From: Pigoraptor vietnamica
Lineage: Eukaryota > Opisthokonta > Filasterea
DNA: 44,964 nt
Assembly: GCA_943704525.1 (NCBI GenBank)
Contig: CALSCQ010002546.1
Location: 1-44,964 of the forward strand
Reading direction: 5' to 3'
Made by a program: the position numbers and the translations under genes
The notes under the pieces: model-generated
What the model was told of the DNA's origin: nothing
Database searches by the model: none
The model's input: only the letters and a program-made list of their open reading frames with translations
Shown here: in pieces, positions 19,873 through 44,960 of the stretch
How the letters are laid out: every line of letters begins with the position of its first letter
Numbering within the stretch: the stretch's first letter is position 1

Positions 19873-22125
19873 CTACTCGTCGTAGTAGTACGCATCGTCG
19901 TCGTCGTCGTCTGCGCCGTCATCATCGTCCGCAGCGCCGTCGTCTCCCTCGTACTCGCCCGCGCCCTCCTCCTCCTCAATGGCCTCGCCGTCCTCATCCA
20001 CCTCGACGACGCTCACAATTCCGCTCAGAAATGCATAGCCAATCATGGCCACGACCGACACGCCCACCGCGAGCCACTTTTGCCGCCGGAACGAGCGCTG
20101 CTCGGGCGACGCAACGGGCGCGCGGGGCGTCCCTTCCGACAGTGGGCCAAAGCCGCCGTCAAAGTACACGCGCGCAATGGTGTCGAAGTGGCGGACGAGC
20201 GGTGCGTGGTTACGCACTAGCCTCCGCAGGCGGTCGTCGGGGACGTCCGAACGCAGCACGGGCGCGAGCAGCGCAAATACCGCCGCATCGAGCGTTGTGG
20301 GCGCGCGGCCAAAGAAGAACGGGCCGTCGCCGAGGCGCACGCTAAGGGTGTTCAGTGCCTCCGAAACCTTGTCGTACAGCTGAGAACAGGCAGCGTACCG
20401 GGCTCTTGAGTTGTCGTACACATAGCAGTACATGCATGCACGCATGCACGAACGCACGCACGTCCACGCACACAAACGCGCGCACGCGCGCCGGCAGTAC
20501 AGAAAAAGAATGAGAGAACGTCGGGAAGACCGCACACCCCAATCCCCACCGGTTGCGGGTCTTCGAGGTCAAAACCGGCGGCGGCGATGCGTGCGGTGGC
20601 TTCCCTCCTGCACAGGCGCAATTGGGAGCGGTGTTCCGTGAGTGAAGTGTTGAACCCACACAAAGGCGTGTGGAATTGAATCGCACGCGCGCAGGGACAC
20701 TGCACACTACATGAGAGGGAGCCGAGAGACCAAAGCACGCACAGCCAATCACTTGAGCCCGAGCAACGCAGGATGAGCAACGCACGCGGAACAAGGAGCA
20801 ACGCAGCGACAAACTCAATGCGCACCAAAGTAGGCGCCTCACATACACCGCACTCCGCACAACAAACACACCTTGCCTGGTACGTGAGAATGGCCCCCAC
20901 GGGAAACGGGGCAATCTGCGCATACCACCCGCGCGTGAATTCCCTGTAGTTGTCCTCCACGGCCCAGAGTGCGTGGGCGCGGGCGAGGTCGACCGACGCG
21001 GCGAGCAGGCCAATGTAGGCGACGGTCTCAGCGCCCTGCGTCGGAACATGCGCAACTGTGTCAATTCATTTTGCGCGCTCTAACACACAATCACATGCAC
21101 GCACACACGCCGGCACATCCATAGACGCACATGCACGCAAATACACGCACACATTACATACAGAGGACACGCACGCGCAACATCCCACGCATACGCGCAC
21201 ATGCACATGCACGCACACATAAACGAACACATTATTCCAGACGCACGTGCGCGGACAGCTCACGCAGACAGACACAGCACACGCACACTCACATAAACCA
21301 GACAAATACACACACCACACACATACACACACACACCTCTCATAGACCAGACAATACACACATCACACATCACACACACACACACACATACACCACATAC
21401 ATAAACACATACACAAACACATACACACATCACTCACACACAGAGCACACCAATACCGACCTGGATAGAGGAGAGGTCTGCATCAATGTTGAGGCCGGCC
21501 TTGCGCCAGTGCGCAATAATGTTGTTTGCGCCGCCGAGAAGCACGTCACCATGGCGATAGAAGGGGAATGTGCCTGTGTGGCATTCCAGATGAGGGCAAC
21601 GACAACAGCACAGGCACGCACAGTCACACACACTCGCACATTGTCAATTACTGCACTCACTCACACTCACACACAACTCAGACTCGCACACGCAAACGCA
21701 TGCGCACACACACTCTCTCTCACTCACACGCACACGCCACTCATAACATCCGTTCGCATAAAATGCTCAGGGTACGTACCACGCACACGCCACTCATAAC
21801 ATACGTTCGCATAAAATGCTCAGGGTACGTACCAGAGGGCGACATCTGCGGGTTTGTCGCGTGCCGCACAGTGAGTGCTTTTTTCGCAAAGCGCGCGTAG
21901 GCAATGACCTGCGTGTGAACAAACGTCAGCAAAGGCTCTCTCTCTCTCTGTCATTCATCTGTGGAAGTGCCTCGTAGTGGCTTGTGTGAAGGCCCGGGGC
22001 GTCATAGGCTCGATGGGGATCAACGCCATCGAACGCTTTGCAGCTGCAGCCACCTTCAGACACTCCGGGTCGAGCGACGGCACGCCCCACGCGCCAGGCC
22101 ACACATACAGCTCCGCTTCTGCCAT
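19873..22125 (-). CDS. MTX1: Metaxin 1 (mitochondrial outer-membrane import/assembly)
   Basis: Six exons (22125-22054, 21908-21833, 21573-21461, 21035-20872, 20607-20550, 20379-19873) give 329 residues in phase. The N-terminal GST-like domain begins LYVWPGAWGVPSLDPECLKV, then IAYARFAKKALTV, TNPQMSPSGTFPF, YRHGDVLLGGANNIIAHWRK. The metaxin GST-C domain includes EFTRGWYAQIAPFPVGAIL and FFFGRAPTTLDAAVFALLAP. A C-terminal transmembrane helix (VVAMIGYAFLSGIVSVV) resembles the MTX1 anchor very closely. The tail after it is strongly acidic (long Asp/Glu run ending DDDDDAYYYDE). Metaxins associate with the SAM and MICOS complexes and, in animals, with mitochondrial transport adaptors. The C-terminal anchor and acidic tail argue for MTX1/3 rather than MTX2. 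Intron 3 is an unusually long CA-rich stretch and intron 2 carries a duplicated splice donor. Confidence 0.95.
21064..21455. repeat. CA/CACA-rich simple-sequence intron of MTX1
   Basis: Nearly the whole intron (about 390 nt) is composed of CACA, CACGCA, ACACAT and similar strings, reading GT-rich on the coding strand. Confidence 0.9.
21729..21834. repeat. 53-bp tandem duplication spanning the exon-2 splice donor of MTX1
   Basis: Two adjacent 53-nt copies (21729-21781, 21782-21834) differ at one position (ATCCG versus ATACG). On the coding strand each copy starts TGGTACGTACCCTGAGCATT, so the donor GGTACGTACC used at 21833/21832 is repeated inside the intron at about 21780. Confidence 0.95.
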
Positions 22126-24063: not shown

Positions 24064-27000
24064 ATGGCGGAGACAACCAAGGACGCAGGTGGGTGTGCCT
24101 TGCAGTCATGTCGTTTTCAGTCGGTGATCGGGCACTGTCGCTGTTGTGTTTCAGCGTCGACGATGCCTGTGCTTTCGATTGCGACGGAGGGAATGATTTG
24201 CGCACCGTCCGAGCGTGGAACACGCGCGTCGGCTGTTTGCTCATGCTGCGGCGGCCGTTCGCGCGCAGTGTGTTGCGCCTGCGGCAACCGGTTCGAGGGC
24301 GGCGCCAAATTTGTGTTTGCGCTCGAGAAGAACTGGCACCATGCGTGCTTCGCGTGCGCGGCGTGCAACCAGCCCCTCACCGACTTTGTCGTGCTGGAGG
24401 GGAAGGCGTATTGCACGAAGCACGCCGAGGAAAAGCAGCAGGCCGAGTATGTCGCGTCGTGCAAGCGCTGCGACGAGTGCAACACGCCGCTCACGGGGCT
24501 CTTCTTCGTGCGCGACGGCAAGAACTTCTGCTCGGCGCATCGCAAGCCCGCGAGCAAGGGCCCCCCATGCGCCGCGTGCGGGCTTGCGATCGATGGCCCG
24601 GCGACGCTGGCGCAGGACCGCCGGTTCCACATGGACTGCTTCCGCTGCGTGCGGTGCGAGCGGCCGCTGGGCACGGGGGAGCCGTATTACGACGTCGAGG
24701 GGGACCCGTATTGCGAGAAGCACTACCGCGCCGCGTTTTGCCAGACGTGCGACGGGTGCGGGCGCACGATCGAGGGCGACCACGTGAGCGCGCTGGACAT
24801 GCACTTCCACACGCACTGCATATTCTGTGTGCGCTGCTCGGCGCCCATTCTGCCCGGCGCCAAATTCGCCGTCGTCGACGGGAAGTTTGTGTGCGAGCCG
24901 TGCAATGCTGACACGCACGCCCCACCGCCGACTGCGCCCGTGCCTGCGGTCCCCGTGACAATCGATTCGCCTGCGCCGCCGGAGGACGACGATGACGAGG
25001 ACAGCGACGACGAAAGCGCGCCGCCCGTCGGTGCGCGCGTGTGTGTGTGTGTTTTTGTGTGTGTGGTCAGTGCGTATGTATGTGAGCGAGAGTGTGAGTG
25101 TGTTTGTGTATTCGTATGACGCGTTGCGTGTGTGTGCATAGGGGCGCAATCGGTGCGTCACTGGCGCAATTGCTGTGGTTGCGCTCTGCGTGAGACATGT
25201 GAAGCACCGAGTGTTCGCTGTTGCGTGTGGCCCTGACACGCGGCGACCGCAGCCAGCGCCACCGAGGCCTTTCGCATTGGGCGAATTCGCGCCTACAGCC
25301 AAAAAATTGCGCCGTTCCTCGAAGTGGGGAAGGTCGTGGGTGGGTGCCGGTGGTGTCGCTTTTGCCTGTGGCACGTGACTTGTGCGTGCGCCGCATTCGC
25401 TAACGGTGTGTGTGTGTGTGCGCGCGCGCGTTTCGCAGCATTGCCCAACGAGGAGAAGGAGCAGCCGATGACACTCGAGCGCATGCTAAAGCTGATGGAC
25501 CTCGGTGGGTGGCCGAGCTGCTTGTGAATCGCGATGTAACGTGCACTGCCACCACTTGTCTTTTCTCTTCTGTTCGCTGCATGATCGATTGCGGTTCAAC
25601 CCGTTTGGCACATGGAACTGAGGCCCTTTCTGTTCGCTGATCACGTGATGGTGCAGACGTTGATCCTTCGGCGGTCATTGATGGCTCACGCGCGCGTAAC
25701 ATGGACAGCGACGACGAAGAAGACGAGGGTGAGTAACAGGCCACTCGGGATTGCGTATGGCCTGACACTGCCACCAGCCCTTGCTTACCTCTTGCCTCTT
25801 CAGACGGACCGACGGGGCCCATTTCACTGCCGGGTCTCATGTCGCTCTTGGACGTCGGCGAGTGTGAGTGCAATGCGTGGCTTTGTGCGTGTGCAGAGTC
25901 GCCTTGACGTAGCTGGAGGAAGGGCGAGGCTACTAGTTAGTTAATCGACCGTCTTTTGTGTGGCAGCGAACTCGAAATCAGCGCGAAGTTCGACGGAAGA
26001 GAGCTCCACAGCCACGCCCCGTGGGTGTCATTGCGCCTGCACTGTTTTCGCTTTAAGCGCTCCTGTTGTTCACTTTGTGTGTGCGACTGTTTTTCACTGT
26101 ACTATGTGCGACTGCCTCTCACTTTGTGTGCGACTGTTTTACACTTTAATGTGTGCGACTGTTTTTCACTACTGTGTGCGACTGTCTCTGTCGTCGCCTG
26201 TTTGTTCCACAAACTGCTTTGATGGGCATCCCCTTGTACTCACGCAATCGTCGCTCTATGTGCCGTCGCTTGTTCTTTTCTTCATTGGGCTGTCGCTTTG
26301 TTCTTATCTTCTCGCACATCCTTGCTCTCCCCATTGCGCAGCGCTCCCGATGGAGTCCCATTACGCATCGCTTTCATTTCCCACGGAACAGCGCAAGAAG
26401 TCGGCCGATCGCCCGACCAACCTGCAGAACATTGAAGAGGAGCCGGTGGGTACCTTACAGTCATCCACTCGCGCACGCAGCGCACACAGGAGGCTTGTCA
26501 TGTGGTCAAAGCGCGCCGATTTCATTTTCCCGCACAATGCTGCGACCGCACGGATGAATCAATTGCTGATCCCCGACCCTCTCTGCCCTAATCACACACA
26601 TACACACACGCGCGCAACCCCTCCTACGTCTCAGACCGAGTACGCAATTCCCATGCACCGCCGCCCGTCCCTCGCTTCGAGCGACCCGGACCTCGTTCGC
26701 CGGCGCAGCGTGTCCATGCCAAACCTCCCTCTCGACCGCCAGCGCGCCGAGGGGCAGAAGGAGCCCCCGCCCAAGTCGCCCCTGGGGCCCACGTCGGACC
26801 GCTCGCAGCTCTCCCCCCGTGCGAAGGACGGCAGCCCGAAGGACTTTCGCGAGCGCGCCAAGTCGGCCAACCAGCGCCCCAAGGTCACCTCGCGGCTGTC
26901 CGGGTGGTTCCAGCGGCTCGTCAGATCGGACGCCGCTGCGGATGCCTCGCCGCAGGCCGCGCCGTCGCCCGCGTCGACCGCGCCACCGCCCGGTGCACTG

Positions 27001-36858: not shown

Positions 36859-37223
36859 TTTCTACGCTGCGCGCCGTGTCGCCAATGTGTCCCTCTATGT
36901 CGATGGACGCAACAAAACGCAGGTCGTTTTGGGTCGCTTGAACGAAGGATCCGAGTTGAAGAAGTGGAGCAGAGCCACATTCCACTGCCGGCGTTTGAAT
37001 TTTCCGATTCCGACAACAGTCACGATCGTAATGTGAAATCATGTTACCACCTATATTTGACAGTGCACACACCGTGGGTAGCGCCCTGTGCCCGTGCCCT
37101 TGTTTTTGCAGTTGTGCGTGTGCGTGCGTGTGCGTGTGCGTGTGCGTGTCGGCATATAAGCTCCCGTACTTCTGTGTGTTGTGGTGTAAATGTTGTGTGA
37201 TATTACGACTTCCCCTTGAGTGT
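36859..37223. other. Divergent intergenic region (TTC23-like / FGase-like gene)
   Basis: The 365 nt contain a TG-rich run (37107-37150) and a TATA-like CATATAAG (37153-37160), 64 nt before the first ATG of the triplicated leader. No further gene. Confidence 0.55.
37153..37160 (+). promoter_or_regulatory. TATA-like element of the amidohydrolase-like gene
   Basis: CATATAAG lies just before the first of three tandem leader copies. A start site about 30 nt downstream would put all three copies, including two complete upstream ORFs, into the mRNA. Confidence 0.5.
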
Positions 37224-37292
37224 ATGCGCCTGCACGCGGCCGTTGTCGCGGTCGTTCTCCTCTGTGTGTGTGTGTCTGAGCCGTTGCTGTGA
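37224..37292 (+). CDS. Upstream ORF 1 (22 codons), duplicate of the signal-peptide start
   Basis: ATG at 37224 opens a 22-residue frame, MRLHAAVVAVVLLCVCVSEP then LL and TGA. It is a copy of the first 13 codons of the main gene plus nine unrelated ones. Whether it is translated is unknown. Confidence 0.5.
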   Translation: MRLHAAVVAVVLLCVCVSEPLL

Positions 37293-37315
37293 TATTACGA
37301 CTTCTCCTCCAGTGT

Positions 37316-37384
37316 ATGCGCCTGCACGCGGCCGTTGTCGCGGTCGTTCTCCTCTGTATGTGTGTGTCTGAGCCGTTGCGGTGA
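37316..37384 (+). CDS. Upstream ORF 2 (22 codons), duplicate of the signal-peptide start
   Basis: ATG at 37316 opens MRLHAAVVAVVLLCMCVSEP then LR and TGA, ending 23 nt before the main ATG at 37408. The 92-nt period is not a multiple of three, so neither upstream ORF can read into the main frame. Confidence 0.5.
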   Translation: MRLHAAVVAVVLLCMCVSEPLR

Positions 37385-37407
37385 TATTACGACTTCTCCT
37401 CCAGTGT

Positions 37408-38909
37408 ATGCGCCTGCACGCGGCCGTTGTCGTGGTCGTGCTCCTCGGTGTCGCGCACGCCGCATCGGCAAGCGGCATGGCGTCGTCCTCTGCGTCGTCG
37501 GGCGCTGGTGCCAAGAAGAAGGGGACCAGCAAGGCCGGCGGCAAGTCATCCGCAAAGAGCAACGACGGCGCCCTGTGGCGCACGGTGGAGTTTGGGTCGC
37601 ACGGCTTTGTCGAATGGAGGCACGGTTCCCTGCCCATCGTGCTCTCTGCGCCCCACGGGGGTGCGCTGCGGCCGGATAACGTGGCCGATCGCAAGCACGG
37701 CGTGACCACAGAGGACATCAAGTCGCTGCATCTCGCGCTCGACATGGGCCGCGCGATGGCGGAGGCGCTGGGCGGGCGTGCGCCGCACATTGTGGCGTGT
37801 CACCTTCACCGGAGCAAGCTGGATGCCAACAGGGACGTCGAGAAGGCAGCGCAGGGAGATCCGCTAGCGACGGTGGCCCACAGCGAGTACCACGCGTTTG
37901 TGGAGCGCGCCATCGCCGAAGCGGTCGCCCAGTTTGGCTTCTGTCACGTGTTCGACATTCACGGCCACGGGCACCAGCGCGCCTGGATTGAGGTCGGCTT
38001 TGGACTGACGGCGACGGAGCTGCAGTTGGGCGACGGCGAGATGAATGCGCTCGCGAACAAGACGAGCATCAAGAAAATCGCGGAGAGGGTGGGTTGCTTG
38101 TTCGTGGCCGACACCTGCGACTCGTCGTATGCGCAATGTTCGCACGTCCACGTCCCATTCCTGCGAGTAACGCATTCCTCATTCGTGCGCACTTGCAGTC
38201 GTCCGTCGCGGCCGTGGTGCGTGGTAACATGAGCTTAGGGGCGCTGCTGCACCAGCACGGACACGAGGCCGTCCCAAGCCCCGCGGTGCCGCACCCGGGT
38301 GGCGAGCACTACTTCAACGGCGGATACACCGTGGTCACGCACGGCGGCCGTCGGAAGGACGGAAAGAACGTCGACGCGACGCAGTTGGAGCACCCGCTGT
38401 GCCTGCGTCGAACGAAGGAGGCGCGCGTCGCATACGCCAAGTGCTTTGCCGCCGCGTGCGTCGAGTGGGTGCGCGCGTGGTACGGCTTTGATCTTGCGTC
38501 TTTTCGCGCCCCTCAGACACCACTCACGCGTTGTGGGGGGTGCAAGCGCGATGTTGGCGTGCAGGTCGTGCCGCCAGCGCCCGTCGCTCGCCCCGCGGCC
38601 CAACCGCACGCGCCGTCTGCGCCGCCCCTCCCGTCCCAGTACGCACCGGCGCCAGTCACGTGCCCGGCCAACTTTCCGGCCATGTTCCAAGCGCAGTGTC
38701 ACGTGCAACAGCCGTATGCTGTGGCCGCGCCGCAGTGCTGCGCTGCGAATGTGCCGCCTTCCTACGACGCCGTTATGAACGGCGCGGGTTACGCGGCGCC
38801 TCCTTCCGGCCCCTATGCCCCTGGACCCTCGTCATCGTACCCGGTGTACGCGCCCCCGCAATCGACCGCTCCCTACCCCGCCAATCCAACGGGCAGTGCC
38901 AAGCGCTGA
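37408..38909 (+). CDS. Secreted N-formylglutamate amidohydrolase-like protein with Pro-rich tail
   Basis: Two exons (37408-38088, 38199-38909) give 463 residues. The Met of copy 3 starts a signal peptide (MRLHAAVVVVVLLGVAHA, Ala-x-Ala-type cleavage), followed by a Lys/Ser/Gly-rich linker. The catalytic region looks like the FGase/HutG-type zinc amidohydrolase family: PIVLSAPHGGALRPD (His near the metal site), a ~GVTTEDIKSL segment, HLHRSKLDANRDVE, DIHGHGHQRAWIEVGFGLT and, in exon 2, GGEHYFNGGYTVVTHGGRR. The family cleaves N-formyl-glutamate or similar amides; an extracellular form probably acts on another substrate, which I cannot name. The C-terminal ~130 residues are Pro/Ala/Tyr-rich low complexity with several Cys (APQCCAANVPPSYDAVMNG), not seen in bacterial enzymes. 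An alternative start at the internal Met (GMASSS) would remove the signal peptide. Confidence 0.82.
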
Positions 38910-44853: not shown

Positions 44854-44913
44854 TCTCGAGCTGCGAAATCGGCAGGATTGAGGCCAAAGAGGCATGCACA
44901 CACTCGCCGAAAA

Positions 44914-44914
<1 letters not shown>

Positions 44915-44960
<46 letters not shown>
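44915..44960. repeat. Poly(A) tract, 46 nt
   Basis: A pure A run two bases from a C, four bases before the window end. It could be the tail of a retroposed sequence or a low-quality contig edge. Confidence 0.9.

Follow-up and report, generated by a model that had tools for sequence, protein, structure and literature searches.

The window analyzed here is the entire contig C1055 (44,964 nt) of a eukaryotic assembly of 32.5 Mb in 1395 contigs. On its forward strand, a 92-nt tandem array (37192-37451; 2.8 copies, 94% matches, TRF score 457) runs into the predicted start of an enzyme gene. The features of the locus are as follows.

37153..37160, + strand, TATA-like box CATATAAG, upstream of all copies
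37190..37219, + strand, additional uORF of 9 codons, MLCDITTSP followed by a stop, in good start context (59th percentile)
37199..37290, + strand, copy 1 of the 92-nt unit (TRF and copy alignment)
37224..37292, + strand, uORF 1, MRLHAAVVAVVLLCVCVSEPLL followed by a stop (37290-37292), 22 codons
37291..37382, + strand, copy 2 of the 92-nt unit (TRF and copy alignment)
37316..37384, + strand, uORF 2, MRLHAAVVAVVLLCMCVSEPLR followed by a stop (37382-37384), 22 codons
37383..37451, + strand, copy 3 of the 92-nt unit, partial, running into the enzyme frame (TRF and copy alignment)
37408..38088, + strand, predicted enzyme exon 1 with the signal-peptide-like start MRLHAAVVVVVLLGVAHA (gene finder, Pfam, hydropathy)
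37477..37479, + strand, in-frame downstream ATG (AGCGGCATGGCG), whose product would have no signal peptide (10.8th percentile of 74 starts)
38089..38198, + strand, predicted intron 1, 110 nt (donor score 6.79, acceptor score 6.27)
38199..38909, + strand, predicted enzyme exon 2 including the stop (gene finder)

The original prediction described three 92-bp copies that each carry an ATG, and TRF recovers the same period, with one ATG at the equivalent place of each copy (37224, 37316, and 37408). Recomputed frames also bear out that copies 1 and 2 stop after 22 codons, 116 and 24 nt before ATG 37408, and that only the frame opened by the third ATG continues into enzyme exon 1. Compared in register, copies 1 and 2 are identical at 87/92 positions, copies 2 and 3 at 70/92, and copies 1 and 3 at 67/92. 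The lower identity of copy 3 arises mostly because, past CTCCTC (which ends at 37446), enzyme codons replace the GT-rich tail of the unit; the third copy is thus partial (64 to 69 nt). An origin of that GT-rich tail in the sequence preceding copy 1 was considered and has weak backing (shuffle p 0.02). A sequence search of the 32.5-Mb assembly, in which very common words were skipped, placed the array at a single locus, and the exact matches of the motif GATATTACGACTTCYCC were its three places in the array; neither the other strand nor a control had any. A dispersed repeat was considered and rejected on the strength of this single locus, and searches for Rfam families and tRNAs returned 0 within the window. 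The array is not a chance pattern; a single unit recurs head to tail at one locus, as expected of a minisatellite or tandem duplication.

The enzyme downstream is predicted to have 463 aa (exons 37408-38088 and 38199-38909). Exon 1 matches the Pfam family FGase (PF05013, N-formylglutamate amidohydrolase) with an E value of 2.3e-6 and 28.4 bits, below the cut-off of 28.9, and the predicted spliced protein, at 25.3 bits, is likewise under it; we therefore call the enzyme FGase-like only. Its N terminus reads MRLHAAVVVVVLLGVAHA-A and ranks 2nd among 45 predicted gene starts by hydropathy, a measure that is not a dedicated signal-peptide predictor; judging from this sequence, the enzyme is probably secreted. 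In an alignment that excluded the tails of the two proteins, a paralog on contig C1349 is identical to the enzyme in 107 of 293 columns; it has no signal-peptide-like start. The match begins at enzyme residue 51, so residues 1 to 50, including the signal-like start, have no counterpart there. A second intron called by the gene finder (38469-38564) looks spurious and was not accepted, because excising it would cost the protein residues that align with the paralog. The C-terminal tail of the enzyme (38565-38906) is proline-rich and contains PPSY.

To place these features against the background of the genome, we trained a gene finder on the window together with 21 further stretches of the same genome (250,288 nt in total); it yielded 74 genes (score of at least 20) and 177 introns, all of them computational predictions. 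About half of the stretches were not arbitrary: 9 of 20 were picked for actin-family matches and 2 for adjoining the paralog, and the remainder were arbitrary. The genome holds 137 exon-level kinesin motor matches, 30 actin-family matches, and short GT-AG introns. The predicted introns (n = 177) have the donor AG/GTGCGT and the acceptor CGCAG/G, with a median of 159 nt and a minimum of 63. Splice-site models were trained on 191 introns, comprising these 177 and 14 kinesin seeds; the seeds are 14 of 15 scored kinesin junctions, of which a doubtful one of 55 nt was dropped, and the shortest seed intron is 61 nt. Among the 74 genes, 64 had 300 nt, 56 had 600 nt, and 67 had 150 nt of upstream sequence for the upstream tests, and hydropathy was assessed on 45. 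Two contigs, C1015 and C868 (L012 and L013), open with near-identical actin 3' exons (first 227 nt) and diverge afterwards; they may represent recent gene copies or haplotypes.

Tandem arrays with a unit of at least 30 nt occur 23 times in this 250,288-nt sample. Of these, 18 fall largely within predicted introns (16 entirely), 3 are intergenic, 1 is upstream of a gene, and 1 is the array at the enzyme start. The intronic enrichment (p 1.4e-6 against all sequence, 0.011 against noncoding sequence) may in part reflect the gene finder, which possibly calls frame-breaking arrays introns. Random placement would put ∼1.03 of the 23 arrays over any of the 74 predicted starts, and 1 was observed. When 67 genes were searched for upstream copies of their own start region, the enzyme gene scored 123, the next two genes 41 and 41, and the antisense control reached at most 36. 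The copied start is thus unusual in degree, yet it arises from a type of mutation that is common in this genome. Three of the sampled arrays lie elsewhere in the window (21268-21438, 21727-21834, and 26078-26185). A second leader array of this genome lies in another stretch (L028:3476-3549), where 3.0 copies of a 25-bp unit stop 7 nt short of the ATG predicted for an actin-like gene.

Whether the copies are transcribed depends on the promoter. The usual spacing between a TATA box and the transcription start is 25 to 32 nt, and from the box at 37153 we expect, with fair confidence though not certainty, a start at about 37180-37187 (∼37184), ahead of all copies. The uORFs would then plausibly be part of the primary transcript. 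ATG 37190, which the original prediction overlooked, lies within a few nucleotides of the expected cap site. Counted in the 300 nt preceding each of 64 predicted genes, the motif TATAA[AG] has 10 occurrences in sense orientation and 0 in antisense, a count that includes the enzyme gene itself and another gene twice. Within -310 to -20, the counts are 11 sense versus 1 antisense (p 0.006); over 600 nt upstream of 56 genes, they are 12 versus 8 (p 0.50), which is no bias, and both strands exceed the 3.15 expected per strand. The TATA signal therefore hinges on the distance chosen: the box does stand before the copies, as originally proposed, and is plausible at 300 nt, but the bias that would back it is gone at 600 nt. 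No trace was seen of a general use of spliced-leader trans-splicing: the 20-nt composition bins before 47 predicted starts (those with a first exon of at least 60 nt) showed no pyrimidine tract. An isolated sequence resembling an acceptor, CCCTTGTTTTTGCAG, lies at 37111, upstream of the TATA box; it is strong, ranking at the 83rd percentile of true acceptors, and several donor-like GTGCGTG words in a row come after it.

If the leader is transcribed, copies 1 and 2 could intercept scanning ribosomes and lower enzyme synthesis or make it conditional, with copy number as a dial. The position of the TATA-like box before all copies speaks for this, as do the two complete ORFs that precede the main ATG and are like it in context, the second of which stops 24 nt short of it. 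A start context that favors initiation, helpful though not strictly required in a regulatory uORF, is absent: the three copy ATGs have one common weak context with T at -3 and -1, equal to that of the main start and at the 5.4th percentile of the 74 predicted starts. Only 2 of the 74, the enzyme gene among them, have T at both positions. In the scanning model, ribosomes often bypass ATGs in weak context; with all copy ATGs in such a context, many ribosomes should leak past each copy. Upstream ATGs are also common in this genome, with at least 4 in the 224 nt before the start in 15 of 56 genes, including the enzyme gene. Over the 600 nt upstream, all 12 bins of 50 nt contain somewhat fewer of them than of antisense ones, so they may be selected against generally. 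The coding log-odds of uORFs 1 and 2 are negative in all frames, the leader RNA structure is unremarkable (z = 0.31), and the TATA bias disappears over 600 nt. A decoy role for the two frames, as originally suggested, therefore finds little to distinguish it, since their context is weak and equal to that of the main start and since upstream ATGs and arrays are common; we regard functional uORFs as unlikely.

The copies might instead lie in, or form, an intron, with a donor at 37264-37268 joined to the acceptor at 37404 and 137 to 141 nt removed. Splicing that removes copies 1 and 2 had been named as a condition that would refute the original reading. We scored the splice signals of the leader. 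The length fits (median intron, 159 nt; 26 of 177 introns at 130 to 150 nt), the donor at 37264 stands at the 24th percentile of true donors, and most sampled tandem arrays lie in predicted introns. The acceptor at 37404, on the other hand, is at the 7th percentile of true sites, and the best pair, 37264 to 37404 (141 nt), has a summed score of 7.38, at the 9.4th percentile of true introns. This is not above chance, as pairs as good occur in 28.8% of 833 nongenic 224-nt segments and in 45.3% of 64 upstream segments. In a variant of the same reading, the donor is at 37266; excision of 37266-37404 would fuse copy 1 to copy 3 in frame, and the start would be doubled (MRLHAAVVAVVLLC-CMRLHAAVVVVVLLGVAHA). 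Tandem duplication would in this way have produced a nascent intron. The original prediction held that no fusion of copies is possible; this is correct without splicing and too strong otherwise, because the in-frame fusion is arithmetically possible. The in-frame pair reaches the 5.8th percentile of true introns. Introns between neighboring copies, as a tandem duplication would create them, would measure ∼43 to 49 nt, compared with 0 of 177 introns under 63 nt, a shortest seed of 61 nt, and 55 nt for the dropped junction, and the best longer pair (141 nt) is at chance level. We consider splicing of the copies quite improbable.

A further reading concerns the choice of start. Leaky scanning past three weak ATGs could bring ribosomes to ATG 37477, also overlooked originally, and yield a cytosolic form besides the secreted one. 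This ATG scores slightly above 37408 (10.8th versus 5.4th percentile), and the paralog, which lacks a signal-like start, matches from enzyme residue 51. ATG 37477 nevertheless scores below most predicted starts, and its use would not require the duplications, which leaves this reading very unlikely. We give as little credence to a combined scheme in which stepwise duplication of the start codon and signal-peptide core is giving rise to a new first intron, or to an alternative first exon: transcripts that join copies 1 and 3 in frame by splicing would carry a doubled signal, unspliced ones would carry uORF brakes, and copy number would tune the amount and targeting of the enzyme. An assembly error, to which a fragmented assembly (1395 contigs) and homopolymer runs near contig ends might point, is almost certainly not the explanation, since copies 1 and 2 differ at 5/92 positions and the third enters unique sequence, so a read that was simply doubled would not account for the array. 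Close to its end (44910-44960), the window has a long run of A, as does L006 near its own end; the assembly perhaps broke at these places.

The likely explanation, in our judgment, is an ordinary local tandem duplication of the minisatellite type that leaves translation unaffected or modestly lowers it. Slippage or unequal exchange would have duplicated a unit that reaches from the last part of the 5' leader into the opening codons of the FGase-like gene; the last copy would retain the gene, and copies 1 and 2 would stay as leader sequence. Transcription from ∼37184, as we infer it, would give an unspliced mRNA with two dead-end 22-codon frames in a start context as weak as that of the real start. 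With leaky scanning and reinitiation, translation would drop modestly or not at all, and the copies would be presumably neutral. The single locus, the frequency of arrays (23 per 250,288 nt), and the start overlap of 1 versus 1.03 expected argue for tandem duplication. Against it, this is the one array of the 23 that overlaps a predicted start, 18 of the 23 are mostly intronic, and the enzyme gene far outlies the 67 genes tested for a copied start (123 versus 41). The original prediction had offered a recent, variable duplication as an alternative to the decoys, and with a single locus and common arrays it is the better supported of the two; the duplication may be recent, and its copy number may vary. 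Selection might account for the common start context and the hydrophobic codons, a question that 5 differences between copies 1 and 2 are too few to decide.

Ordinary uORFs are short frames before the main ATG in a transcript. The short frames of the enzyme leader likewise precede the main ATG in the likely transcript, but unlike ordinary uORFs they are copies of the main start, which places all starts in one context. Among the titles listed by a limited literature search, none concerned a duplicated start codon. The human TYMS 5' untranslated region contains a 28-bp tandem repeat, in two (2R) or three (3R) copies, with the start codon 13 bp downstream of the array (PMC3320636). Both are thus short arrays of 2 to 3 units in a 5' leader just before a start codon; the TYMS units as that source describes them have no start codon, whereas each unit of the enzyme array carries one, and TYMS copy number is described as polymorphic, whereas the enzyme array is known from one assembly (PMC3320636). 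In the potato RdRp gene, a new intron gained by tandem duplication is reported as detected (PMC4974935). There, too, duplication could provide a donor and an acceptor from two copies; unlike the potato intron as reported, the splice signals of the enzyme leader are at chance level (PMC4974935).

As it stands, the array adds a further minisatellite in a leader and is of little consequence. Translation of the copies, if it occurs, would make them a natural case of uORFs copied from the main start and identical to it in context, whose copy number could serve as a simple translation dial.
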